Shown: positions 51,245 to 63,160 of the stretch, in pieces
How positions within the stretch are numbered: position 1 is the first letter of the stretch
How the letters are laid out: every line of letters starts with the position of its first letter
Source: Sulfurimonas xiamenensis
GTDB taxonomy: Bacteria > Campylobacterota > Campylobacteria > Campylobacterales > Sulfurimonadaceae
NCBI RefSeq assembly: GCF_009258045.1
Contig: NZ_CP041166.1
Span: forward strand, 1,364,001-1,428,000
Length of the DNA stretch: 64,000 nt
Reading direction: 5' to 3'
Made by a program: the position numbers and the translations under genes
Notes under the pieces: generated by a model
What the model was told of the DNA's origin: nothing
Databases searched by the model: none
The model's input: the letters and a program-made list of their open reading frames with translations, nothing else

Positions 51245-52072
51245 GTGAAAAAAATTTTATTTCTACTGTTTATATTCTTTACATCTTTAGCTTTTGCTAA
51301 ACCTATCATTATAGTCAGCATTCTTCCACAAAAAACTTTTGTTCAAAAAATAACAAAAGATATGGCAGATATAACCGTTATGGTCGAACCGGGGAACTCT
51401 CCTCACTCTTATGAACCGAAATCTTCACAAATGATAGCTGTTTCTAAAGCTGATATATATTTTAGTATAGGCGTTGAATTTGAAAATGTATGGCTAAGTA
51501 AAATAAAATCACAAAACTCTAATCTTACATTTATAAATATAAGCGACAATATCCCTAAAATAGCCATAAAAAAAGACAATCATAAACACAACAACAACGA
51601 TCCTCATATATGGACTTCACCAAAAAATGTAGAGATAATGGCAAACTCTATATACAAAGCGCTTATTACAGTAGATCCGAAAAATAAAAACCTTTACAAG
51701 TCAAACTTTGATGATTTTATAAAAGAGATCAGAGATACAGATGCACAGATAAAAGAGATACTTAAAGAAACAGAACCAAAAAGTAAATTTATGGTTTTTC
51801 ATCCATCATGGGGATATTTTGCAAATGAGTACAATCTCACGCAAATAGCAGTTGAAGTAGAAGGCAAAGAGCCAAAACCAAAAGAGATGATTAAAATTAT
51901 TGATGAAGCAAAAAAAGAGAATATAAAAGTAATTTTTACTCAACCTGAATTTTCAGATAAAAGTGCTCAAATTATTGCAAAGGAAGCCGGCGTTGTGGTT
52001 AAAAAAATCTCTCCGCTAAATCCTAACTGGTCACAAAATCTAATAAACATGGCAAAAGCAATTGCAAACTGA
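51245..52072 (+). CDS. znuA: Periplasmic zinc-binding protein ZnuA
   Basis: ZnuA captures zinc in the periplasm for ZnuBC. The 275-residue protein has a signal peptide (cleavage likely after LAFA, residue 18). The three metal histidines are near 54 (NSPHSYEP), 121 (NDPHIW) and 185 (FHPSWGY). A short charged His/Asn-rich loop (KDNHKHNNN, about 110-118) precedes the second ligand, a hallmark of ZnuA over manganese homologues. The start is GTG at 51245. It overlaps znuC by 11 bp. Confidence 0.93.
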   Translation: MKKILFLLFIFFTSLAFAKPIIIVSILPQKTFVQKITKDMADITVMVEPGNSPHSYEPKSSQMIAVSKADIYFSIGVEFENVWLSKIKSQNSNLTFINISDNIPKIAIKKDNHKHNNNDPHIWTSPKNVEIMANSIYKALITVDPKNKNLYKSNFDDFIKEIRDTDAQIKEILKETEPKSKFMVFHPSWGYFANEYNLTQIAVEVEGKEPKPKEMIKIIDEAKKENIKVIFTQPEFSDKSAQIIAKEAGVVVKKISPLNPNWSQNLINMAKAIAN

Positions 52073-52814
52073 TAAAAATTCACCTATTATAGAAATTAAA
52101 AATCTCTCTTTTGCTTATGATAAAGAACTGACATTAAAAGATATAAATCTTAAAATTTATGAAAAAGATTTTATGGTTTTTATCGGTCCAAATGGGGGTG
52201 GAAAAAGCACTCTTATAAAACTAATGCTTGGTATAAATTCTATGCAAAAAGGTTCTATAGAGATTTTAAACAAACCTTTACACAAAAGCCTCTCACAAAT
52301 AGGCTATGTTCCGCAAAACACAAATGTAAACCTTGATTTTCCCATAAAAGCGATAGAGGTCGTTATGATGGGAAAAGGCTCAAAAAAACGCTCTTTTTTT
52401 GGTTACTCAAGAGAGGAAGTTTCACATGCTATGGAGATGCTTAAGCAAGTAGGCATGCAAAATTTTGCCCACAGTAAAATAGGTTTGCTCTCAGGTGGTC
52501 AGCGTCAAAGAGTAATGATAGCCAGAGCCCTCTGTTTGGACCCAAAAATTCTTCTGCTAGACGAGCCGACTTCAAGTATTGATGCAGATGGACAAAAGCG
52601 TATTTATGAACTCTTAAAAGAGTTAAATAAAAAAATAACAATTGTTGTTGTAAGCCATGATATATCTATTATTTTAGAATACGCTTCCAAAGTGGCTTAT
52701 ATCAATAAAGAGCTGCTCTTTCACGATTTAAGTTCTATCAAAAAAGAGTTTTATACAAGCGGTGAACACTTTTGTGAAGTTGAACTTCTTCAAATGTTAG
52801 GAAAGCAAAAATGA
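52062..52814 (+). CDS. znuC: Zinc ABC transporter ATPase ZnuC
   Basis: ZnuC is the ATPase of the zinc importer. The 250-residue protein has Walker A GPNGGGKST (about 42-50), QIGYVPQNTN, signature LLSGGQRQRVMIARAL and Walker B LLLDEPTSSID. Start TTG at 52062 overlaps the znuA end; its stop overlaps the znuB start by 4 bp. Confidence 0.92.
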   Translation: MQTDKNSPIIEIKNLSFAYDKELTLKDINLKIYEKDFMVFIGPNGGGKSTLIKLMLGINSMQKGSIEILNKPLHKSLSQIGYVPQNTNVNLDFPIKAIEVVMMGKGSKKRSFFGYSREEVSHAMEMLKQVGMQNFAHSKIGLLSGGQRQRVMIARALCLDPKILLLDEPTSSIDADGQKRIYELLKELNKKITIVVVSHDISIILEYASKVAYINKELLFHDLSSIKKEFYTSGEHFCEVELLQMLGKQK

Positions 52815-53611
52815 TAGAAGCTTTATCTTATGAATTTATGCAAAATGCTTTAATTGCCGGAGTAATTGTCAGCCTTATTTCTGGAATTATCGGCTCTCTA
52901 ATCGTTGCAAACAGAATGGTTTTTTTAGCCGGCGGAATTGCGCACGCGGCATACGGCGGAATAGGAATAGCTGTTTTTACCGGCATCCCGATATTTTTAG
53001 GAACCTCTCTTTTTGCCGTTGTCGCAGCGCTATTTATGGCTTTTGTTACTATAAATCAAAGGGAAAAAACTGATACCTTCATAGGGCTTATTTGGGCCGT
53101 AGGAATGGCTATTGGGATCATTTTGGTTGATTTGACACCGGGATATAATGTAGATTTGATGAGCTATCTCTTTGGCTCTATCTTAGCAGTAAACAGCGAA
53201 GACCTCTATTTTATGGGGATTCTTTTTGCAGTTGTTCTATTTGCTGTAACATTTTGGTACCGCGATATTTTGGCTGTATCTTATGATAGCGAATATGCTG
53301 CACTAAGCGGAATAAATGTAAGATTTTTTTATACACTGATACTTATCTTATCAGCATTAACCGTTGTAATCGCCATAAAGGTTGTAGGATTGATTTTGGT
53401 TATAGCACTTCTTACAATTCCTATATATATCGCACAAAATCTCTCCTCTTCACTCTACAGCATGATGCTGTTCTCCGGATTTATCGCATCTCTATTTACA
53501 ATTATCGGTCTTTGGTTCTCTTATAGTTTTAATTTAACTTCAGGTGCCTGCATTATCTTAGTCTCTGCTGTATCACTAATGATTTTTATGTTTATCTCAA
53601 AATTTAAATAA
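52811..53611 (+). CDS. znuB: Zinc ABC transporter permease ZnuB
   Basis: ZnuB is the membrane channel. The 266-residue protein has about eight helices and the ABC-3 family signature FLAGGIAHAAYGGIGIAV (about 38-55), with ALSGINVRFFYTLILIL later. It overlaps znuC by 4 bp. modE begins 6 bp after its stop, an unusual link between zinc import and molybdate control. Confidence 0.93.
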   Translation: MIEALSYEFMQNALIAGVIVSLISGIIGSLIVANRMVFLAGGIAHAAYGGIGIAVFTGIPIFLGTSLFAVVAALFMAFVTINQREKTDTFIGLIWAVGMAIGIILVDLTPGYNVDLMSYLFGSILAVNSEDLYFMGILFAVVLFAVTFWYRDILAVSYDSEYAALSGINVRFFYTLILILSALTVVIAIKVVGLILVIALLTIPIYIAQNLSSSLYSMMLFSGFIASLFTIIGLWFSYSFNLTSGACIILVSAVSLMIFMFISKFK

Positions 53612-53617
53612 AGGCTT

Positions 53618-54400
53618 TTGCAAATGAAGATAGATGGACGATTTTGGCTTACAAAAGATAACGAGAGTTTTTTAGGGGCCGGACGCATTGAACTTCTTAA
53701 AAAGATTGAAAAAACAGGCTCGATCAATGCCGCGGCAAAAGAGATGAAAATGAGCTATAAAGCTGCATGGGAGAGAATCAACGGAATGAACAATCTTGCT
53801 GATGAGCCGCTGATTCAAAGAAAAACCGGCGGAAAAGGTGGCGGCGGGACAACACTTACTCCCTATGCACATAAACTTATAGAAACATACAACCGCCTCG
53901 ATGAACTACACCGCCAATTTATAGAGCGTTTTGCCGAAGCCGGTGATGATCCGGAACGATTAGCAAAAATACTTAAGAGAACTTTTTTAACAACAAGCGC
54001 AAGAAATCAGATCCCTTCTAAAATAAATGCTATTAATTTAAATGAACTTAATGCTCAAATAGTTATGTCACTCCCTGGCGGTGTTTCTCTAACCTCTGTA
54101 ATCACAGCTAAATCAGTTCAAAATATGGGACTAAATATTGGCGATGATATCTATGCGATTATCAAATCCAGCGATATAAATATAGTAAATAAAGTTCCGG
54201 ATGATAATGAAAATTTAAATATATTAGAAGGCACTATAAAAACGATAGAAATCTCAAAAGACTCTTCAGAAGTATCTTTTGCTATAAACAAACACACAAC
54301 ATTAATAGCTCTTTTAAATAAAACAGATATTGATTCTCTAAAGATAGGTTCCAAAGCCTACGCAATAATCAACAAAAAAAATATAATTATAGGCTCTTGA
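53618..54400 (+). CDS. modE: Molybdate-responsive regulator ModE
   Basis: ModE binds molybdate or tungstate and then DNA, usually repressing molybdate uptake genes. The 260-residue protein (standard length about 262) has a LysR-like winged helix (about 15-80: ELLKKIEKTGSINAAAKEM, SYKAAWERINGM, KTGGKGGGGTTLTP). Two TOBE/Mop domains follow: TSARNQIPSKINAI begins the first at about 125, GTIKTIEISKDSSEVSF the second at about 207. The SARNQ motif contacts oxyanion. It lies 6 bp after znuB. A good ModE operator lies 43 bp after its stop, ahead of a TonB/ABC cluster; no modABC is in the window. Confidence 0.93.
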   Translation: MQMKIDGRFWLTKDNESFLGAGRIELLKKIEKTGSINAAAKEMKMSYKAAWERINGMNNLADEPLIQRKTGGKGGGGTTLTPYAHKLIETYNRLDELHRQFIERFAEAGDDPERLAKILKRTFLTTSARNQIPSKINAINLNELNAQIVMSLPGGVSLTSVITAKSVQNMGLNIGDDIYAIIKSSDINIVNKVPDDNENLNILEGTIKTIEISKDSSEVSFAINKHTTLIALLNKTDIDSLKIGSKAYAIINKKNIIIGS

Positions 54401-54430
54401 ATGTAACTTTAATAAATATATAAGAAATTT

Positions 54431-54460
54431 TTGTTTATCATTCGTTATATCAATTAAGAT
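54431..54460 (+). promoter_or_regulatory. Candidate promoter overlapping the ModE operator
   Basis: TTGTTT (54431-54436) and TAAGAT (54455-54460) with an 18 bp spacer form a plausible sigma70 promoter inside which the ModE site sits. Transcription would begin near 54466, leaving a leader of about 389 nt before the binding-protein gene. Both hexamers are imperfect. Confidence 0.4.
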
Positions 54461-54466
54461 ATAAAG
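54443..54466. promoter_or_regulatory. ModE operator upstream of the TonB/ABC uptake operon
   Basis: CGTTATAT, 8 bp, ATATAAAG is an inverted repeat. The left half matches the ModE half-site CGTTATAT of the E. coli modA operator exactly, and the right half matches its inverse ATATAACG at 7 of 8 bases. Spacing is close to that of E. coli (7 bp). The modE gene itself ends 43 bp upstream. Confidence 0.75.
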
Positions 54467-54532
54467 AAGATTATCCAAAGCTAAGAAGTTATTTATTTAT
54501 ATATCTCTATAAAAACTTAAAAAAGGAAAAAA

Positions 54533-54844
54533 GTGAATTCTTTAAATTTTACCGTTGTATCAAAAAAGATATACTACATATTAGAATATAAGATATTTCA
54601 AATCAAAGAAAAGACTCTTCAGAAAATAGCGCAAAAAAAAGCACTATTTTCTGAGGCGTCTACGCCTCATTTATCTAGTGAATCTTTTTTTGCTCCATGC
54701 AAAATGAAGCAAATTTCTCCTTTCTTATTATATTCTCTTGTTAGATGTCCAAAACAAGTTGCAGCCATACAACAAAAAAAGCACTTCACTAGATTACAAC
54801 TCTCTTTTTTAAACCAATTTTCTTTTTTTTACAAAAAATCATAA
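54533..54844 (+). CDS. Doubtful 103-codon frame in the leader of the molybdate-type operon
   Basis: A GTG at 54533 with AAGGA 5 bp upstream opens a 103-residue frame that ends 10 bp before the binding-protein gene. The product is rich in Lys, Gln, Phe and Ser, lacks a domain, and contains CKMKQISPFLLY and RCPKQVAAI. The same DNA forms several strong hairpins and carries a short open frame on the other strand, so the frame may be a by-product of RNA structure. It could also be a leader peptide. The ribosome binding site is the main argument for translation. Confidence 0.25.
   Translation: MNSLNFTVVSKKIYYILEYKIFQIKEKTLQKIAQKKALFSEASTPHLSSESFFAPCKMKQISPFLLYSLVRCPKQVAAIQQKKHFTRLQLSFLNQFSFFYKKS
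54617..54794. other. Highly structured leader element (multiple hairpins and a long-range stem)
   Basis: Going left to right: CAGAAAATAG (54620-54629) pairs perfectly with CTATTTTCTG (54644-54653) across an A8 loop, with a further inner GC/GC. GAGGCG (54653-54658) pairs with CGCCTC (54663-54668) and competes with the outer part of the first hairpin. ATCTAGTGAA (54673-54682) pairs with TTCACTAGAT (54785-54794) and encloses three more hairpins: TTTGCT/AGCAAA (54689-54713), CTTGTT/AACAAG (54737-54758) and GTTG/CAAC (54758-54773). Such nesting suggests a regulatory RNA or a dispersed repeat. It does not match a riboswitch core that I know. Confidence 0.6.
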
Positions 54845-54854
54845 GGAACATAAA

Positions 54855-55859
54855 ATGTCTCTGCTCATAAAATCAATTATTTTTCTACTTCTCTTAAATA
54901 TATCATTAAATGCCGGAGTAATCAAAGATTTAAATACAACAAAAAAAGTCTTTGGTTCATCGCCGCCTATGAACTATCTTATATACGCACTCAACCCGGA
55001 AAAAACAGTAGGATTAAATTTTAAAATAAAAGAGCAAAACAGCTGTGCTGGTAAGCAGTTTCTTAACAATAGATTTTTATCTTTGCCTATTCTTGGTACT
55101 TTTCACGGCGAGGGACAAGGCATAAACCTTGAAAAGCTTCTTAAGCATAAACCGGATTTAATTCTTGTCTGGGAAGATGATATGTTAATAGAAAAAATTT
55201 CCAAAGAGATAGCAAAAACAGATATACCGACCATCTCCATCCCTTTTAGAAAAATAGAAGATATGCCAAAATCGATTAGATTAGCCGCAACAACTATAGA
55301 CGAGGAGCAAAGAGGAGAACTTCTTAGCTCTTATACCGATAATATTATTGATGAAATCAAATCATCTCTAAAAGATACAAAACCGATTCGCTACTACTAT
55401 GCTGAAGGGCTTGATGGACTCTCAACCGAATGCGACAGCTCTTTTCATGTAGAGGCACTCAACTTTGCAAATGGAGAAAATGTTCATAAATGCCGACAAA
55501 GAGGACTTTTGGGGCTGGAAAAAATAAATTTTGAGACGCTTTTATCCTACAATCCAGAGATTATAATAGTCCAAAATGCCTTTACTTACAACAAGATTAT
55601 AAATAATCCTCTTTGGAGACATCTGCAGGCAGTAAAAAACAAAAATATCCATCTTATCCCGGACAATCCTTTTAACTGGGTAGATAGACCTACATCTTTT
55701 ATGCGCATCATGGGAATTCAGTGGCTGGCAAACCTCTTTCATCCAAAAGAGTACGCAGTAAACATTCACAAAAAAACAGCTGAGTTTTATAAGCTCTTTT
55801 TTAATGTAGAACTAACAGATAAAGATATAAAACAGTTATTGGGAGAAATAGATGAATAA
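54855..55859 (+). CDS. Periplasmic binding protein, MolA/BtuF-like (probable molybdate/tungstate or chelate)
   Basis: The 334-residue protein has a signal peptide (cleavage likely after ISLNA, residue 20) and a type III (BtuF/FhuD-like) binding-protein pattern: VFGSSPPMNYLIYAL, then LPILGTFHGEGQGINLEKLLKHKPDLIL, here split at about residue 77, and WVDRPTSFMRIMGIQWLANL near the end. Proteins of this fold include BtuF (cobalamin), FhuD (siderophores) and MolA of Haemophilus, which binds molybdate. The ModE operator upstream argues for an oxyanion. It heads an operon with a TonB receptor, FecCD permease and ATPase, and overlaps the receptor gene by 8 bp. Confidence 0.82.
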   Translation: MSLLIKSIIFLLLLNISLNAGVIKDLNTTKKVFGSSPPMNYLIYALNPEKTVGLNFKIKEQNSCAGKQFLNNRFLSLPILGTFHGEGQGINLEKLLKHKPDLILVWEDDMLIEKISKEIAKTDIPTISIPFRKIEDMPKSIRLAATTIDEEQRGELLSSYTDNIIDEIKSSLKDTKPIRYYYAEGLDGLSTECDSSFHVEALNFANGENVHKCRQRGLLGLEKINFETLLSYNPEIIIVQNAFTYNKIINNPLWRHLQAVKNKNIHLIPDNPFNWVDRPTSFMRIMGIQWLANLFHPKEYAVNIHKKTAEFYKLFFNVELTDKDIKQLLGEIDE

Positions 55860-58089
55860 AAAAAGTATCGTTCTATCTTTCATTACAGCAGGTATACTTG
55901 CCGCCAACCAGATTAGTATAGAACAGATAGTTGTAAACGGTGTACAGGAGGATGCTTATTTTTTTGTAGATGATACAAATCTATCAGATGCAAAAAACAT
56001 ACAAACTTTTACATCAAGAAGTATCTCAACACTTAGCACACATGCCAACATGAACTCTTACACGGTAATAGCATTTTCGCCCTCTGTTAATTTTACTCCG
56101 GCCGATGCAGCAGGCTCAAATGAACCCTCATTTCATGATCCTATTCGTATCCGCGGCAAATCCCAGACAGGTCCTGGTGGAGTTTTTATGATAAACTCTA
56201 TGCCTGTATCAAGCAATCCAGGCGGCGGAAAACAGATGGTAGATATACAAAATATTGCATCTATTGACCTGCTAAAAGGGTATATGAGCGTTGATAAAAA
56301 TCTAGGGTTTTCAAGTCTCATCGGAAAAGTGAATATGAATATTTTAGCGCCCTCAGAAGAGACGAAAACAACTCTCTTGCAATCCTTTGGTTCTGATAAC
56401 TTTCAAAGAACCTTTATTAGAGTTGATAGCGGAAAAATAGGAGATTTTAGAGTTTTTGGCTCACTATCTACTCTCTCCAACAATAAAACAAAAGGCGCCG
56501 GAGATTTAGAAAGAACAAACGCAATGGTTGGAGTTTCATATAATCCAAATGATACTTTTCAAACTGATATTTACGCAATAAAAAACAGTGATGAACATCA
56601 TAATTACGATAGTTTAACCTACCAACAGACACAAGATTTAAAGAGATATTTCAATAAAGATTATGCTACCATAAAACCAACGACCTCAAATGACATAAAC
56701 TACTATGACTGGAATAAGCAAGATTTTGACACGACAACAGTTGTGGCAAATTTGAAACTTCAAGCGACTTTAGATGATCTTGTAACCTTTAAACCATATT
56801 ATAAAAAAGACAAAGGAGAGTACTGGTTTTCAAGAGAAAATGCTGATGTATCAAAGAACCGTGTTATAAATTGGGATATAGATCATGAAGTATATGGTGC
56901 AATTGCCGCGTATGAGCATATCTTTTCGCCCGCTTTAAAAAGCAAAATCGGCTACTCTTATCATCGTCAAGAGCCTCCTGGACCTGCAAGCGACCAAAAA
57001 AAATATGCAGTTGTAGATGGTGAGCTTGTCTTTAATGGTTATGCAACGCTTGCCAAAACTGATGATCATATCATTCAGTCTCCTTTTTTAGAATTTAGCG
57101 GCAAATTTGAGAGGTTTAATTATAGTGCAGGAGTTCAGTACCAAACATTTGAAGTAGGTGCTATTAAAAGTTATGCATCAGACGCTTCAACAAGCAGTGA
57201 TTATGATACAGCGATTACAAGCGCCGCGTTTGATCCCTACTCAAGTGTAGATACAAAAACATTTAAAACCTATCTTCCATCACTCTATTTGGGATATAGA
57301 GCTACTGAGAATAGTGCTCTTTATATGGACTACTCTCGTACATATGGCTTTGATGTTAATCTTTTTTCAACCTATCTCAATAAAAGAAGTAACTTTGTAA
57401 GCAAAGGGGTGACTCTTCAAGAACTGTGGGATACACTGGAGCTTGAAACTTCAGATAATATAGATTTTGGTGCTAAAATAAATCTAGGTGCAATTACTTT
57501 AAATCCGTCTCTTTTTGTTTCATTTGTGAAAAACAAACAGGCAAATATTTATGACTCATCTTACAATGTAAACTATCCTGCAAATGTTGGAGATGCTTTT
57601 GGCTACGGAGCTGAATTTTCAGCATCTGGACTTATAGGTGAAAATACAGAATTTTTACTCGGCTTATCCTATAACAGATACTCTTATAGTCAAAATTTTC
57701 AAAGCTCAGCCGCCTCCACTACAGATATTAAAGGCAATCAGCTCCCGGATGCACCCAAATATATGGCAAAAACAGCGATCTCGTACTACTTGGGGAAATG
57801 GAGCTTCACTCCAAGCATTCGTTATACATCAAGCCGTTATGGGGATGTAGAAAATACACAAAAAATAGATGCTTTTACTCTTGTAGATATGGATATCTCC
57901 TATAAGGCATCCTCATTTATGGGTTCAAAAAATACCATTTTCAGAGCAACTGCTACAAATATAACAGATGAAAAATATATCTCTACCATTAATGCAGCAG
58001 ATAATATTTTAGCAGCATCAACAACAGCAAGCACCTATCAAACAGGTGCACCTTTTGCTATCTACTTTAGTGCAAATCTAAAATATTAA
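55852..58089 (+). CDS. TonB-dependent outer-membrane receptor
   Basis: The 745-residue protein has a signal peptide (about 1-19), a TonB-box-like start (ISIEQIVVNG), a plug domain (about 50-170: DPIRIRGKSQTGPGGVFMIN, IASIDLLKGYMSVDKNLG) and a 22-strand-type beta-barrel. It ends in the C-terminal outer-membrane signature AIYFSANLKY. It would move a scarce large or complexed substrate across the outer membrane using TonB energy. No tonB/exbBD is adjacent. Placement between a ModE operator and a BtuCD-type transporter suggests molybdate or tungstate, probably as a chelate. A substrate cannot be read from the sequence. Confidence 0.92.
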   Translation: MNKKSIVLSFITAGILAANQISIEQIVVNGVQEDAYFFVDDTNLSDAKNIQTFTSRSISTLSTHANMNSYTVIAFSPSVNFTPADAAGSNEPSFHDPIRIRGKSQTGPGGVFMINSMPVSSNPGGGKQMVDIQNIASIDLLKGYMSVDKNLGFSSLIGKVNMNILAPSEETKTTLLQSFGSDNFQRTFIRVDSGKIGDFRVFGSLSTLSNNKTKGAGDLERTNAMVGVSYNPNDTFQTDIYAIKNSDEHHNYDSLTYQQTQDLKRYFNKDYATIKPTTSNDINYYDWNKQDFDTTTVVANLKLQATLDDLVTFKPYYKKDKGEYWFSRENADVSKNRVINWDIDHEVYGAIAAYEHIFSPALKSKIGYSYHRQEPPGPASDQKKYAVVDGELVFNGYATLAKTDDHIIQSPFLEFSGKFERFNYSAGVQYQTFEVGAIKSYASDASTSSDYDTAITSAAFDPYSSVDTKTFKTYLPSLYLGYRATENSALYMDYSRTYGFDVNLFSTYLNKRSNFVSKGVTLQELWDTLELETSDNIDFGAKINLGAITLNPSLFVSFVKNKQANIYDSSYNVNYPANVGDAFGYGAEFSASGLIGENTEFLLGLSYNRYSYSQNFQSSAASTTDIKGNQLPDAPKYMAKTAISYYLGKWSFTPSIRYTSSRYGDVENTQKIDAFTLVDMDISYKASSFMGSKNTIFRATATNITDEKYISTINAADNILAASTTASTYQTGAPFAIYFSANLKY

Positions 58090-58097
58090 GGTTTTTG

Positions 58098-59123
58098 ATG
58101 CATCAAACAAGTTATAGCAAATATTTAATCTTTGCAACGATGCTTTTACTAGCAGCAGCAACTTTCTCCCTTTTATGGGGGCAGTATCCTATAGATATGA
58201 CAACTTTTATAAAATATTTAGAGTATAAATTTTTGGGCAGCACTACTATGGAAGCTGATGCTTTTGCGCTTATAGATAATATTATTTTGCAAATTCGTCT
58301 TCCCAGAATCCTTTTAGCCCTCTTGATAGGAGCGGCACTTGCAACTTCCGGGGCTGTTTTTCAAGCAATGTTTGTCAATCCGCTTGTTTCTCCTGGAATA
58401 CTAGGAGTGCTCTCTGGAGCATCTTTTGGAGCGGCTTTGGGCATGCTTATAAGTGAGCATTGGTATATAGTTCAAATATTTGCTTTTTGTTTTGGTTTTG
58501 TCGCCGTTGCAATTGCCCTGCTTATCGGCTCAACCATAACTGCCTCACGCTCAACGGTTATGCTTGTTCTTGGCGGTGTTATCAGCGGGTCACTCTTTAC
58601 TTCGCTACTTTCAATTATAAAATATATAGCAGATCCATACAGTACACTTCCCGCAATTGTTCATTGGCTGATGGGTTCACTCTCCATGGCAGAGCTGAAT
58701 GAAGTTCTTCTTATAGCTGCTCCCATACTTTTTAGTATTTTTGCAATGATATTTATGAGTAAATATTTTGATCTTTTAAGTTTGGGGGATGAGGAGGCAA
58801 AAGCACTCGGCATCAATGTAAAACTTATACGCACTCTTGCAATACTCTTTGCTACAATTGCAAGCTCTCTTGCTGTTGTAATGGCAGGAATTATAGGCTG
58901 GGTAGGACTTATCATACCGCATATTATCCGTATGGCAGTGGGGCCTTCTCATCGTCTGCTGATTCCTTTATCAGCGATTTTTGGAGGAGCATTTTTACTT
59001 CTTGTTGATGCTGTATCCAGACTGACTTTTAGTGTTGAGATACCAATTGGAATTTTAACTTCTCTTATAGGGATTCCTATCTTCATCATTGTATTAAAAA
59101 AAGCGAGGGCAGCATGGAACTAA
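58098..59123 (+). CDS. FecCD/BtuC-family permease (MolB-like)
   Basis: The permease of about 341 residues has nine to ten helices and the FecCD signatures RLPRILLALLIGAALATSGA (about 73-92), NPLVSPGILGV and GWVGLIIPHIIRM near 275. It pairs with the ATPase downstream (10 bp overlap). I chose ATG at 58098 with AAGG upstream; TTG at 58095 would add one residue. BtuC-type permeases import metal chelates, and in the Haemophilus MolBCA system molybdate. Confidence 0.93.
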   Translation: MHQTSYSKYLIFATMLLLAAATFSLLWGQYPIDMTTFIKYLEYKFLGSTTMEADAFALIDNIILQIRLPRILLALLIGAALATSGAVFQAMFVNPLVSPGILGVLSGASFGAALGMLISEHWYIVQIFAFCFGFVAVAIALLIGSTITASRSTVMLVLGGVISGSLFTSLLSIIKYIADPYSTLPAIVHWLMGSLSMAELNEVLLIAAPILFSIFAMIFMSKYFDLLSLGDEEAKALGINVKLIRTLAILFATIASSLAVVMAGIIGWVGLIIPHIIRMAVGPSHRLLIPLSAIFGGAFLLLVDAVSRLTFSVEIPIGILTSLIGIPIFIIVLKKARAAWN

Positions 59124-59902
59124 GACCGCTTATTGAAATAAAAGATCTTCATTTCTCATACAAAAACAACCCTGTATTGTCCGGAATAAATTTAAATCTA
59201 TATAAAGGGGAAGTGATATCGCTTCTAGGACCAAACGGATGCGGAAAAAGTACACTTATGCGTTTAATGCTCAAACTTCTTCCTGCTTATGGCAGTATAA
59301 CCCTGCACGACAGAGAGTTAGAAAACTATTCTCACAAAGAGATTGCTTCGCATATTGCATATATTCCGCAATACCATACCGTACCATTTAACTACACAGT
59401 GCTTGAAATGGTTCTTATGGGACGCGTCTCAAAACTTTCAATATTTGCATCTCCGTCAGCTTATGACTATGAAACAGCGCATAACGCCCTTGATAAAATC
59501 GGTATTTTAGATTTAAAAGACAGAGCCTTTAGCGAACTTAGCGGCGGGCAGAAACAGCTTGTACTGCTTGCCCGTGCTATTGCTCAAGAGGTAACTGTTT
59601 TTCTTATGGATGAGCCTGTAAACGGCCTTGACTATGGAAACCAAATCAGACTTTTAGAACTTATAAATGAACTAAACCGTGAAGGTTATACATTTTTAAA
59701 AACCACCCACTATCCGGATCACGCTCTTCTTATATCCAGCCGCATAATCGTTATGAGAGGCGGAAAAATCATTGCAGACGGAGCACCCGATAAAATCATA
59801 ACATCCTCTATTATAGAAGATGTTTACGGCATTAACGCCGACATTATTACACACGATAGACACAAAAGATGTGTACCGATTTTTGCACAAGGAATAAAAT
59901 GA
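59114..59902 (+). CDS. ABC transporter ATPase (FecE/BtuD/MolC-like)
   Basis: The 262-residue ATPase of the FecCD-type importer has Walker A GPNGCGKST (about 38-46), IAYIPQYHTVPFNY, signature LSGGQKQLVLLARAI and LMDEPVNGLDYG. It overlaps the permease gene by 10 bp and the next gene by 4 bp (ATGA). With the binding protein, receptor and permease it completes an outer- and inner-membrane uptake route that probably is under ModE control. Confidence 0.93.
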   Translation: MELRPLIEIKDLHFSYKNNPVLSGINLNLYKGEVISLLGPNGCGKSTLMRLMLKLLPAYGSITLHDRELENYSHKEIASHIAYIPQYHTVPFNYTVLEMVLMGRVSKLSIFASPSAYDYETAHNALDKIGILDLKDRAFSELSGGQKQLVLLARAIAQEVTVFLMDEPVNGLDYGNQIRLLELINELNREGYTFLKTTHYPDHALLISSRIIVMRGGKIIADGAPDKIITSSIIEDVYGINADIITHDRHKRCVPIFAQGIK

Positions 59903-60720
59903 AATCTCAACAAAAATTTTCTAAAAATACAATCTCTTTAAAAACAAAAAGTTTTTTAGGAGGAGCGATTATTGGATCACTTGGTGGACTTATCGGTCTT
60001 GGCGGAGCAGAGTTTAGACTTCCCTTTTTAGTAGGAATTTTAAAGATAGATACACTCCATGCTATTATTTTAAATCTTTTAATCTCACTTGTTACGGTAA
60101 TTTTTGCCCTTGCTTTTAGAGGTGTAGATGCGCATATTTTCTCTTATGGCTATATTGTTTTAAATCTGCTTTTAGGAACTCTTGCAGGTGCATGGATAGG
60201 AGTAAATTTTGCCACAAGTGTCAATAAAGAGAGACTCAATACTTATATTTTTTATCTTTTGCTTTTTTTAAGCATTGTTCTTTTTAGTCATATTTTCCTT
60301 GATTTTACACAGACAATAAAGCTTCCATATATCCTGCAGCTTAGCATCGGCTTTATAACCGGCCTTGGAATCGGCATAATTAGTTCGCTCTTAGGCGTTG
60401 CAGGCGGAGAGCTGCTTATTCCCACCATTATACTTCTTTACGGAACCGATATAAAATTGGCTGGAACATTAAGTTTGGCAATTTCACTTCCAACTCTTAT
60501 TGTTTCACTTTTTAAGTATCACAAAAATAAGAGATTGATCGAAGTCTTAACTTTTAAAAATATTATTATTTTTATGACTCTAGGATCTATTTTAGGAGCG
60601 TTTTTAGGCTCACTCTTGTTTGGCATGGTAAATGCTCTATTTCTTGAAGCAGGATTAAGCTTTATACTGCTGTTATCGGCGTACAAACTCTTTAAAAAAA
60701 ACAAAAACTTGACATCATAG
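59899..60720 (+). CDS. TauE/SafE-family (DUF81) anion transporter
   Basis: The protein is about 273 residues with eight predicted helices in two repeats. GSLGGLIGLGGAEFRLPFL (about 26-44) and ISSLLGVAGGELLIPTIIL (about 166-184) are the paired family motifs. TauE/SafE proteins move sulfite, sulfonates or other organosulfur anions outward. I chose ATG at 59899, overlapping the ATPase stop as ATGA; a frame from 59869 would add ten non-hydrophobic residues. It is the last gene of the ModE-associated operon, so export of an excess or competing oxyanion is a reasonable guess. Confidence 0.85.
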   Translation: MKSQQKFSKNTISLKTKSFLGGAIIGSLGGLIGLGGAEFRLPFLVGILKIDTLHAIILNLLISLVTVIFALAFRGVDAHIFSYGYIVLNLLLGTLAGAWIGVNFATSVNKERLNTYIFYLLLFLSIVLFSHIFLDFTQTIKLPYILQLSIGFITGLGIGIISSLLGVAGGELLIPTIILLYGTDIKLAGTLSLAISLPTLIVSLFKYHKNKRLIEVLTFKNIIIFMTLGSILGAFLGSLLFGMVNALFLEAGLSFILLLSAYKLFKKNKNLTS

Positions 60721-60738
60721 CTTCTATTAGTGTAAAAT
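60709..60738 (+). promoter_or_regulatory. rho promoter inside the end of the TauE gene
   Basis: TTGACA (60709-60714) matches the -35 consensus, and TAAAAT (60733-60738) follows at 18 bp spacing. The -35 lies in the last codons of the TauE gene. Transcription would start near 60745, giving a leader of about 93 nt to rho, in keeping with leader-based autoregulation of rho in other bacteria. Confidence 0.72.
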
Positions 60739-60837
60739 ACGGCATCAAATTGTGTAAAGAACTCTTACACTTTCCCTATACTTCTTACAAGAAATACCTA
60801 CTGGGCAAAATCTAAAAAAACTAAGGCAGCTAATCGT

Positions 60838-62175
60838 ATGAGCGAAAATACTCCACAACAACCTCGCAAAAACAGTAACAAAAACAACACAAAAACAAGA
60901 ACTCACAAACCGGCAAAAGGCGCAAGTGTAGATGATTTGCGTATAAAAAGCATAGAAGAGTTAACGGCTATTGCGGCAGAACTCAATGTAGAACATCCAA
61001 ATGAGCTAAAAAGACAAGATCTTATCTTTGAAATTTTAAAAGCACAAACCGAACAGGGAGGGTTTATCCTCTTTAGCGGTATCTTGGAAATTATGCAGGA
61101 TGGATACGGTTTTATCCGCTCGATTGACAAAAGTTTTGATGAGAGTATAAACGATGCTTATGTTTCAAATACCCAGATTCGACGCTTTGCCCTAAGAAAC
61201 GGTGATGTTGTCACCGGACAGGTTCGTCCTCCAAAAGAGCAGGAGAGATATTACGCGCTCATCAAGATAGAAGCAGTTAACGGCCTCCCTCCTGAAGAGA
61301 GCAAAAAAAGACCTCTCTTTGAAAATCTCACTCCACTCTATGCAACAGATCAAATCAAGCTTGAATACAGAGAAAAAGGTTTAACAGGCCGTATGATGGA
61401 TCTTTTTGCTCCTATAGGAAAAGGTCAACGCGGACTTATCGTTGCCCCTCCAAGAAGCGGTAAAACCGAACTTTTAAAAGAGATTGCTCACGGTATAACT
61501 GCTAACCATCCCGAAATTGATTTAATGGTTTTACTTGTTGATGAGAGACCTGAAGAGGTAACAGATATGGAAAGAAGCGTTAAAGGCGAGGTTTACAGCT
61601 CCACTTTTGATATGCCTGCAAAAAATCATGTAAAAGTTGCAGAGATGGTAATAGAAAAGGCAAAAAGACGCGTTGAACTCGGTCGCAATGTAGTTATTCT
61701 ACTTGACTCCATTACCCGCCTTGCCCGCGCCTATAATACAGTTACACCCTCAAGCGGCAAGGTTCTCTCAGGCGGTGTTGACGCAAACGCTCTACACAAA
61801 CCAAAAAGATTCTTCGGTGCTGCAAGAAACATAGAAAACGGCGGAAGTTTGACTATTATTGCGACTGCTCTTGTAGATACAGGGAGCAGAATGGATGAAG
61901 TTATTTTCGAAGAGTTTAAAGGAACAGGAAACTCAGAGGTTGTTCTTGATCGTAAAATAGCAGACAGACGCATTTTCCCTGCTATAGACATTCTTAAATC
62001 AGGAACAAGAAAAGATGAACTCCTTATCGGTCCCGAAGTTCTGCAAAAAGTATTTATCCTGCGTCAAATGATCCACAAACAAGAAAATGAGATAGAAGCA
62101 CTTAAGTTTGTCTACTCTACAATGGGTAAAAAAGCTACAAACGAAGAATTTTTAGAGAGTATGAACACAAACTAA
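60838..62175 (+). CDS. rho: Transcription termination factor Rho
   Basis: Rho is a hexameric RNA helicase that ends transcription. The 445-residue protein has a basic, Asn/Lys-rich N-terminal extension (about 1-25), a Rho N-terminal helix region ([20 protein letters not shown]), the RNA-binding cold-shock domain (about 75-150) and the ATPase. Walker A is [17 protein letters not shown] (about 200-217), followed by [20 protein letters not shown] and [20 protein letters not shown]. It has its own promoter and runs directly into murI with a 1 bp gap. Confidence 0.97.
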
Positions 62176-62968: not shown

Positions 62969-63160
62969 CTACTTTGCAATCTTCTTTGCAACTTTTTTTG
63001 CTAATTTTTTAGCATCTTTTTTTTCACTTAAAGCTTTTTTACTAACTTTTTTTGCCACTTTCTTTGTAGCTTTTTTAACATCTTTTTTAGCAATATCAAC
63101 TTTTTTGATAGCTTTTTTTGCTATTGCTTTTACATCTTTTTTCTTTAACTCTTTTGCCAT
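62969..63160 (-). CDS. Histone H1-like Lys/Ala-rich mini-protein
   Basis: This 63-residue protein consists almost entirely of Lys, Ala, Val, Ile and Asp in KKxxKKA-type repeats (AKKAIKKVD, KKATKKVAKKVSKKAL, KKLAKKVAKKIAK). It resembles the Lys-rich C-terminal tail of histone H1 and bacterial H1-like proteins such as chlamydial Hc1. It would be strongly basic and probably binds DNA non-specifically as a nucleoid protein. AAAGGAGTCCTAA precedes the ATG. It is a single gene. Confidence 0.8.
   Translation of the reverse strand: MAKELKKKDVKAIAKKAIKKVDIAKKDVKKATKKVAKKVSKKALSEKKDAKKLAKKVAKKIAK

Follow-up and report, generated by a model that had tools for sequence, protein, structure and literature searches.

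A ModE-Linked TonB-Dependent Operon of Sulfurimonas xiamenensis Is a Probable Importer of Molybdenum or Tungsten

The window analyzed here, a 64,000-nucleotide stretch (positions 1364001-1428000) of the complete 1,916,242-base genome of Sulfurimonas xiamenensis, carries on the plus strand, in this order, a ZnuABC-type operon, modE, a predicted ModE operator, a gene for a periplasmic binding protein (SBP1), and genes for a TonB-dependent outer-membrane receptor (TBDR), a FecCD permease, an ATPase, and a TauE-family protein (table 1). The original prediction, made from the letters of the window, had described these genes as a ModE-linked system for the uptake of molybdate or tungstate, and its gene set, order, and coordinates were recovered in full, with every named gene on the plus strand. 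The genes had also been described as all overlapping, which holds for the SBP1/TBDR, permease/ATPase, and ATPase/TauE pairs but not for the TBDR and the permease, which are separated by a gap of a few bases. In addition, two features had been overlooked in the 450-bp gap between modE and the binding-protein gene, namely a tonB gene in decay and an RNA structure that is conserved. The named close relatives of the source genome are Sulfurimonas, Sulfuricurvum, and Sulfurovum assemblies, and SBP1 or a close paralogue was present in 36 of 151 genomes of the family.

Table 1. Features of the modE-linked locus (positions are those of the window)
Feature	Position	Strand	Evidence or remark
modE, molybdate-responsive repressor, LysR-type helix-turn-helix and two TOBE domains	53624..54400	+	TIGR00637, TIGR00638, NF007957, PDB
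Predicted ModE operator CGTTATAT-CAATTAAG-ATATAAAG	54443..54466		1 mismatch to palindrome; genome scan and conservation
Decayed tonB, 103-amino-acid frame	54533..54844	+	Full TonB here in relatives
Second, weaker ModE-like site CGTTGTAT-CAAAAAAG-ATATACTA	54553..54576		Inside tonB relic
RNA hairpins P2 and P3 (P3 = GAGGCGTCTACGCCTC, 54653-54668)	54615..54676	+	Covariation
Closing stem P1 (TCTAGTGAA ... TTCACTAGA) of extended RNA, where tonB decayed	54674..54793	+	
Periplasmic binding protein SBP1, MolA/BtuF fold	54855..55859	+	PF01497, PDB matches, structure model
TonB-dependent outer-membrane receptor (TBDR)	55852..58089	+	PF00593, 5.8e-31 (22-strand barrel domain)
FecCD/BtuC-type inner-membrane permease	58098..59123	+	PF01032, 4.7e-81
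ABC ATPase, FecE/BtuD type	59114..59902	+	PF00005, 1.9e-31
TauE/TSUP-family membrane protein	59899..60720	+	PF01925, 2.1e-24

The ModE protein scored above the NCBIfam cut-offs for TIGR00637 and TIGR00638 (NF007957, 166 bits) and matched E. coli ModE in the PDB (3e-32); a TTG start at 53618 is possible. The operator that had been proposed downstream of modE was borne out in its position, its rank in the genome, its conservation, and its spacing. The sequence CGTTATATCAATTAAGATATAAAG sits exactly at 54443-54466 and is the best site in the 1.92-Mb genome, being the only one with at most one mismatch to CGTTATAT-N8-ATATAACG; two sites carry two mismatches, one at 622798-622821 (G000), in front of a porin-modA-modD operon, a placement in favor of the molybdenum link, and the other within an unrelated coding region (L093). 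We then considered 41 non-identical loci encoding the same binding protein, in 31 of which a site with at most two mismatches was found within 1.5 kb upstream of the binding-protein gene, counts that are not independent because the loci are related. By comparison, 500 permuted-palindrome controls run on the same sequences gave a mean of 0.05 loci and a maximum of 4 of 41. The spacing was also specific, as a spacer of 8 was found in 31 loci and spacers of 4-7 and 9-12, with the half sites kept, in 0-3. Perfect or near-perfect palindromes were observed in L053 (CGTTATATTTTTTTAGATATAACG), L082 (CGTTATATCTGTTTAGATATAACG), and L054 (CGTTATATCTTAACAAACATAACG). These comparisons indicate that the predicted operator is more than a chance occurrence. 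As expected of a member of a ModE regulon, the operon has both modE nearby and a ModE-type operator in its promoter region.

The neighborhoods of homologous operons were analyzed next to those of BtuF-type loci. Genes of the mod family lay within the fetched region at 30 of 40 homologous loci, compared with 0 of 12 B12-type control loci from the same genus. By gene, ModE was encoded at 25 of the 40 loci, ModA at 16, ModD at 8, and ModB, ModC, and Mop at 5 each; further neighbors included TonB (30), ExbB (8), ExbD (7), TauE (6), more TBDRs, and a second binding protein. A homologue of the TauE-family protein sits between modB and modC in one relative (L071). Co-occurrence of modE and ModE sites at homologous operons had been named as the comparison to make, and both recurred there, with modA, modB, modC, modD, and Mop as neighbors; the opposite pattern, operons devoid of ModE sites and carrying cobalamin or siderophore regulators instead, was looked for and was not what these loci displayed. 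Judged from gene content, the molybdenum association also recurs in the loci of distant organisms. Sulfurospirillum diekertiae has one divergent cluster encoding ModE, ExbB-ExbD-TonB, a globin, a monooxygenase, binding proteins, FecCD, and an ATPase; a locus in a Fibrobacteres metagenome-assembled genome encodes ModE, DUF364, a TBDR, FmdE, FecCD, an ATPase, a binding protein, TonB, and XdhC; MoeA stands beside FecCD and several binding proteins in Clostridium ljungdahlii; and the Pseudobacteroides cellulosolvens locus encodes a ModD-like protein. Taken together, these comparative tests strongly support a predicted link between the operon and molybdenum. Distant homologues of the binding protein and permease were also observed in several phyla with DUF364 (putative heavy-metal chelation), TrmO-like proteins, and FmdE (L161, L164, L159, L163, L165).

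The transport proteins themselves were compared with characterized families and structures. Searched by sequence against the PDB, SBP1 was closest to 4pag, a Sulfurospirillum protein (264 bits), followed by 4ovk, a Veillonella protein (75), and MolA HI_1472 (59), after which came an uncharacterized Eubacterium protein and then heme, B12, and siderophore proteins (BtuF, 29). MolA (3psa), which scored 77 bits with a profile, led the ligand-characterized proteins. The AlphaFold model of SBP1 (mean pLDDT 85.6) gave VIA Z scores of 37.5 with 4pag, 24.6 with MolA (289 residues), 22.9 with YiuA, 22.7 with CeuE, and 19.2 with BtuF. Among relatives whose ligand is known, MolA is thus the closest by sequence and by modeled fold, with a small margin over other metal-complex proteins. 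The class III binding protein, FecCD permease, and ATPase of a MolBCA-type importer are all present (PF01497, PF01032, PF00005). Among NCBIfam models the permease best matched the BtuC type and the ATPase was FecE-like (198 bits), both below cut-off, and the scores against the BtuF, BtuC, and BtuD equivalog cut-offs were 40/234, 193/334, and 126/281 bits. Identity between the TBDR and the corresponding receptors of 11 homologous loci is 60-67%; no PF07715 match was reported, and the alignment contains a conserved plug-like HDPIRIRGKSQ.GPGGV and a TonB-box-like EQIVV near the N-terminus. Its nearest solved relatives were CntO and FoxA, at very weak similarity (E ~1e-8, C-terminal barrel only) and with different metals. 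The source genome keeps two other clear TonB C-terminal-domain proteins, which are candidate energizers of the TBDR.

ModE with molybdate acts as a repressor, TBDRs use TonB energy, and class III binding proteins hand their ligands to FecCD importers. On the evidence above, we consider it probable that the operon encodes an importer, repressed by ModE, with which molybdenum (or tungsten) species are brought through both membranes. When molybdate is sufficient, ModE-molybdate would occupy 54443-54466 and block transcription, and when molybdenum is short the operon would be derepressed and expressed. The TBDR, energized by TonB-ExbBD encoded elsewhere in the genome, would then carry large or scarce molybdenum species across the outer membrane, an organic chelate being the likeliest; the MolA-like protein would bind them in the periplasm, and FecCD and the ATPase would import them. 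The operon would supplement a separate ModE-linked porin-modA-modD operon for free molybdate. Nap, which had been named in the original prediction, may be a beneficiary; at least four molybdopterin oxidoreductases are encoded in the source genome as molybdenum consumers. No metallophore biosynthetic genes were recognized among the genes annotated; thus, the cell is as likely to scavenge foreign or environmental ligands as to use a self-made molybdophore.

Several points weigh against the proposal of a molybdenum importer. The usual assumption is that molybdate crosses the outer membrane passively via porins, so free molybdate would be expected to need no TBDR. ModA was found in 40 of 40 genomes tested, and a ModE-linked porin accompanies modA both in the source genome and in relatives. 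In the source genome, the 622798-622821 site, a joint second-best ModE-like site, lies 5' of the porin-modA-modD operon (619391-622440; L196 3392-6441; minus strand), in which modA was assigned by TIGR01256 and modD by resemblance to the ModD of relatives, and which has no modB or modC directly adjacent. Therefore, free molybdate already has a route, and because ModA is universal in the genomes tested, the TBDR operon would be an additional or accessory route rather than the sole molybdenum importer; its receptor is best explained by a substrate, for instance a chelate, whose size or scarcity makes porins inadequate. Furthermore, YiuA and CeuE, which are siderophore and nickel binding proteins, score less than 2 Z units below MolA in the fold comparison. 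L082 and L083 keep ModE-FecCD-ATPase-SBP2 and lack SBP1 and TBDR1; therefore, the permease need not work with this receptor, which suggests a modular system. Finally, simple molybdate import leaves unexplained some island genes of relatives, which encode a globin (31 of 40 loci), a luciferase-like monooxygenase (26), and class I methyltransferases (23 for the most frequent one). Islands with the luciferase-like flavin monooxygenase, methyltransferases, a bacterial globin, and two further TonB receptors were observed in L067, L066, L082, L083, L071, L132, and others. Two other ideas were tried and rejected. Replacement of ModABC by the TBDR system is contradicted by the presence of modA in 40 of 40 genomes. 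As to strict coupling to nitrogen fixation, the source genome has no nifH and the association was only weak, nifH exceeding its cut-off in 10 of the 16 genomes that hold SBP1 and in 6 of the 22 that hold neither SBP1 nor SBP2 (Fisher p about 0.05, relatedness uncorrected).

Among the alternatives, a ferric siderophore importer (or one for mixed Fe/Mo catecholates), merely adjusted by ModE since such ligands bind molybdate too, survives best, and we regard it as unlikely. Catechol siderophores of Azotobacter serve both iron and molybdenum, the weak relatives CntO and FoxA of the TBDR are metallophore receptors, and the proximity of YiuA and CeuE to MolA in fold score agrees with such a substrate. 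However, Fur-type palindromes were not enriched (6 of 41 loci, against a control mean of 4.75), whereas ModE sites were, and the flanking genes are mod genes. It is improbable that the operon imports an organosulfur compound or another organic nutrient and is linked to ModE because the catabolism of that nutrient depends on a molybdenum enzyme. Sulfite and similar anions are the export substrates of TauE proteins, and the luciferase-like flavin monooxygenase of relatives belongs to the SsuD superfamily; however, this enzyme is nearest to bacterial luciferases in the PDB rather than to SsuD and is absent from the window, and such an importer would leave modA, modB, modC, modD, and modE as recurring neighbors unexplained. 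We hold it very improbable that the adjacency of modE is incidental and that the operon transports another metal. Directly following a ZnuABC-type operon as it does, modE could have been shuffled in, but ModE and its site recur with different outer flanks (25 of 40 and 31 of 41 loci), and this conservation largely refutes an incidental adjacency. A cobalamin or corrinoid system of the BtuB-BtuFCD type is most improbable, since the affinity of the permease for BtuC among NCBIfam models and the weak match of SBP1 to the BtuF model fall far under the equivalog cut-offs, no cobalamin riboswitch was found by Rfam in 53400-61000 of the window or in the loci of seven relatives, and the genus has separate BtuF-like loci that are without mod genes.

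A ModE-controlled molybdenum importer at this locus would recombine known parts, namely ModE, a MolA-type importer, and a TBDR. Two-membrane pumps of this type usually serve siderophores or vitamin B12. Like the operon, H. influenzae MolBCA (HI1470-1472) combines a class III binding protein, a FecCD permease, and an ATPase, and mol adjoins modD; unlike it, with which it shares about 22% identity, the window operon adds a dedicated TBDR and conserved ModE sites. In H. influenzae, where mol adjoins a modA gene in addition to modD, the ligands bound by MolA are molybdate and tungstate (PMC4031551, PMC3928620). MolBCA has been described as a low-affinity inner-membrane importer whose regulation is poorly understood (PMC4031551). 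With E. coli BtuB-BtuFCD the operon shares a TBDR, a periplasmic binding protein, and a type II ABC importer, but it differs in having no cobalamin riboswitch, in models far under cut-off, and in its mod neighborhood. In the E. coli ModE-ModABC regulon, too, ModE is paired with an 8-8-8 operator (CGTTATAT-N8 type); there, however, ModE controls a type I ABC importer for free molybdate, without an outer-membrane receptor. The closest solved relative of SBP1, the Sulfurospirillum deleyianum protein of PDB 4PAG (37% identity), is a structural-genomics entry for which we found no functional description, and the proposal provides a testable function for a family of binding proteins that have been solved structurally and have had no ligand assigned. 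Searches of the open literature found no account of molybdate uptake that is TonB-dependent and under ModE, which is not proof of priority, as most subscription papers were outside this coverage. If the proposal is true, molybdenum joins the metals that are actively imported across both membranes. Comparison of these loci suggests that sulfur-oxidizing Campylobacterota related to Sulfurimonas, which live in sulfidic water where molybdenum is expected to be scarce or thiolated, may actively import molybdenum or tungsten, probably chelated, rather than depend on passive porins only. The proposal further suggests a molybdophore or xenophore, as well as functions for orphan partners like ModD.

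The interval between the operator and SBP1 holds the remains of a tonB gene. Relatives usually have a full-length tonB (TIGR01352, PF03544) directly before the binding-protein gene, and the gene is decayed in the window, L090, L072, L070, and L082. The 103-amino-acid frame of the window gave no Pfam or NCBIfam match; it keeps a remnant of the TonB N-terminus (VVSKKIYY) and of the linker (TLQK..SEA.TP) and has lost the C-terminal domain. In relatives with intact tonB, the start of the gene encodes V-I-S-x-K-I via a ModE-like CGTTATATCA...AGATA (at least nine genes), and it is to these codons that the weaker ModE-like site of the window corresponds. Overlap of a ModE-operator-like sequence with the 5' coding end of tonB was observed in L053, L055, L057, L058, L059, L061, L063, L065, and L066.

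A covarying RNA element spans 54615-54797; elsewhere it occurs inside intact tonB linkers or on its own after a ModE site. In 19 aligned sequences, 94% of the P2/P3 cells were paired, with 38 double-change cells, whereas shuffles gave 12.3 and slid controls 2-11. The 5' arm was placed by a search for pairing, a procedure that favors structure, although the sequence of the arm is itself conserved. In one lineage, GAGGCG...CGCCTC has changed to GAGGGG...CCCCTC. Where tonB decayed, P1 closes a domain of roughly 120 bases, and six sequences were independently predicted to fold alike; 98% of its cells were paired, but the stem is nearly invariant and hence shows little covariation. The region 54600-54820 folds with a z of -5.75. 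The window copy scored 66.9 bits with model R1, and when 397 genomes from the phylum were scanned with a covariance model, 15 gave scores above 40 bits. The strong matches examined were at tonB/SBP loci, behind ModE, or alone (G060), and matches outside the family, below 30 bits, are probably due to chance. In G060 (L204, near 1624625) the RNA stands by itself after a ModE-like site, in the interval that separates the island from rho and just short of rho; L210 and L200 are further RNA loci. The element is single-copy in the genome, so a genomic repeat was rejected, as was a leader reading frame for a conserved small protein, because the 3' frames differ among relatives while the stems persist. 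No Rfam 15 family, the molybdenum cofactor (Moco) riboswitch included, plausibly matched the window stretch at E values of up to 5, and none reached the gathering score in the loci of seven relatives. The RNA may act as a leader with a regulatory role, as an attenuator in tonB that is coupled to translation, or as a small RNA under ModE control, and it offers a clear case of a coding sequence with a conserved RNA element that outlived the protein. We tentatively advance a broader scheme, possible but rather doubtful as a whole, in which the loci encode a ModE-controlled TonB-dependent system for the uptake and release of molybdenum or tungsten chelates; it would comprise a dedicated TonB-ExbBD, several receptors, possible ligand-stripping enzymes in relatives (the flavin monooxygenase, methyltransferases, and ModD), and the tonB-borne structured RNA, kept as a ModE-linked leader or stand-alone RNA after the loss of tonB.

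Two further observations concern the flanks of the operon. The ZnuABC-type metal importer directly 5' of modE occupies 51245-53611, and L053 shares this znu-modE order except for a single additional reading frame that separates znuB from modE. Downstream, on the minus strand, 62969-63160 holds a 63-amino-acid frame made up nearly entirely of lysine, alanine, and valine, a composition like that of histone H1.

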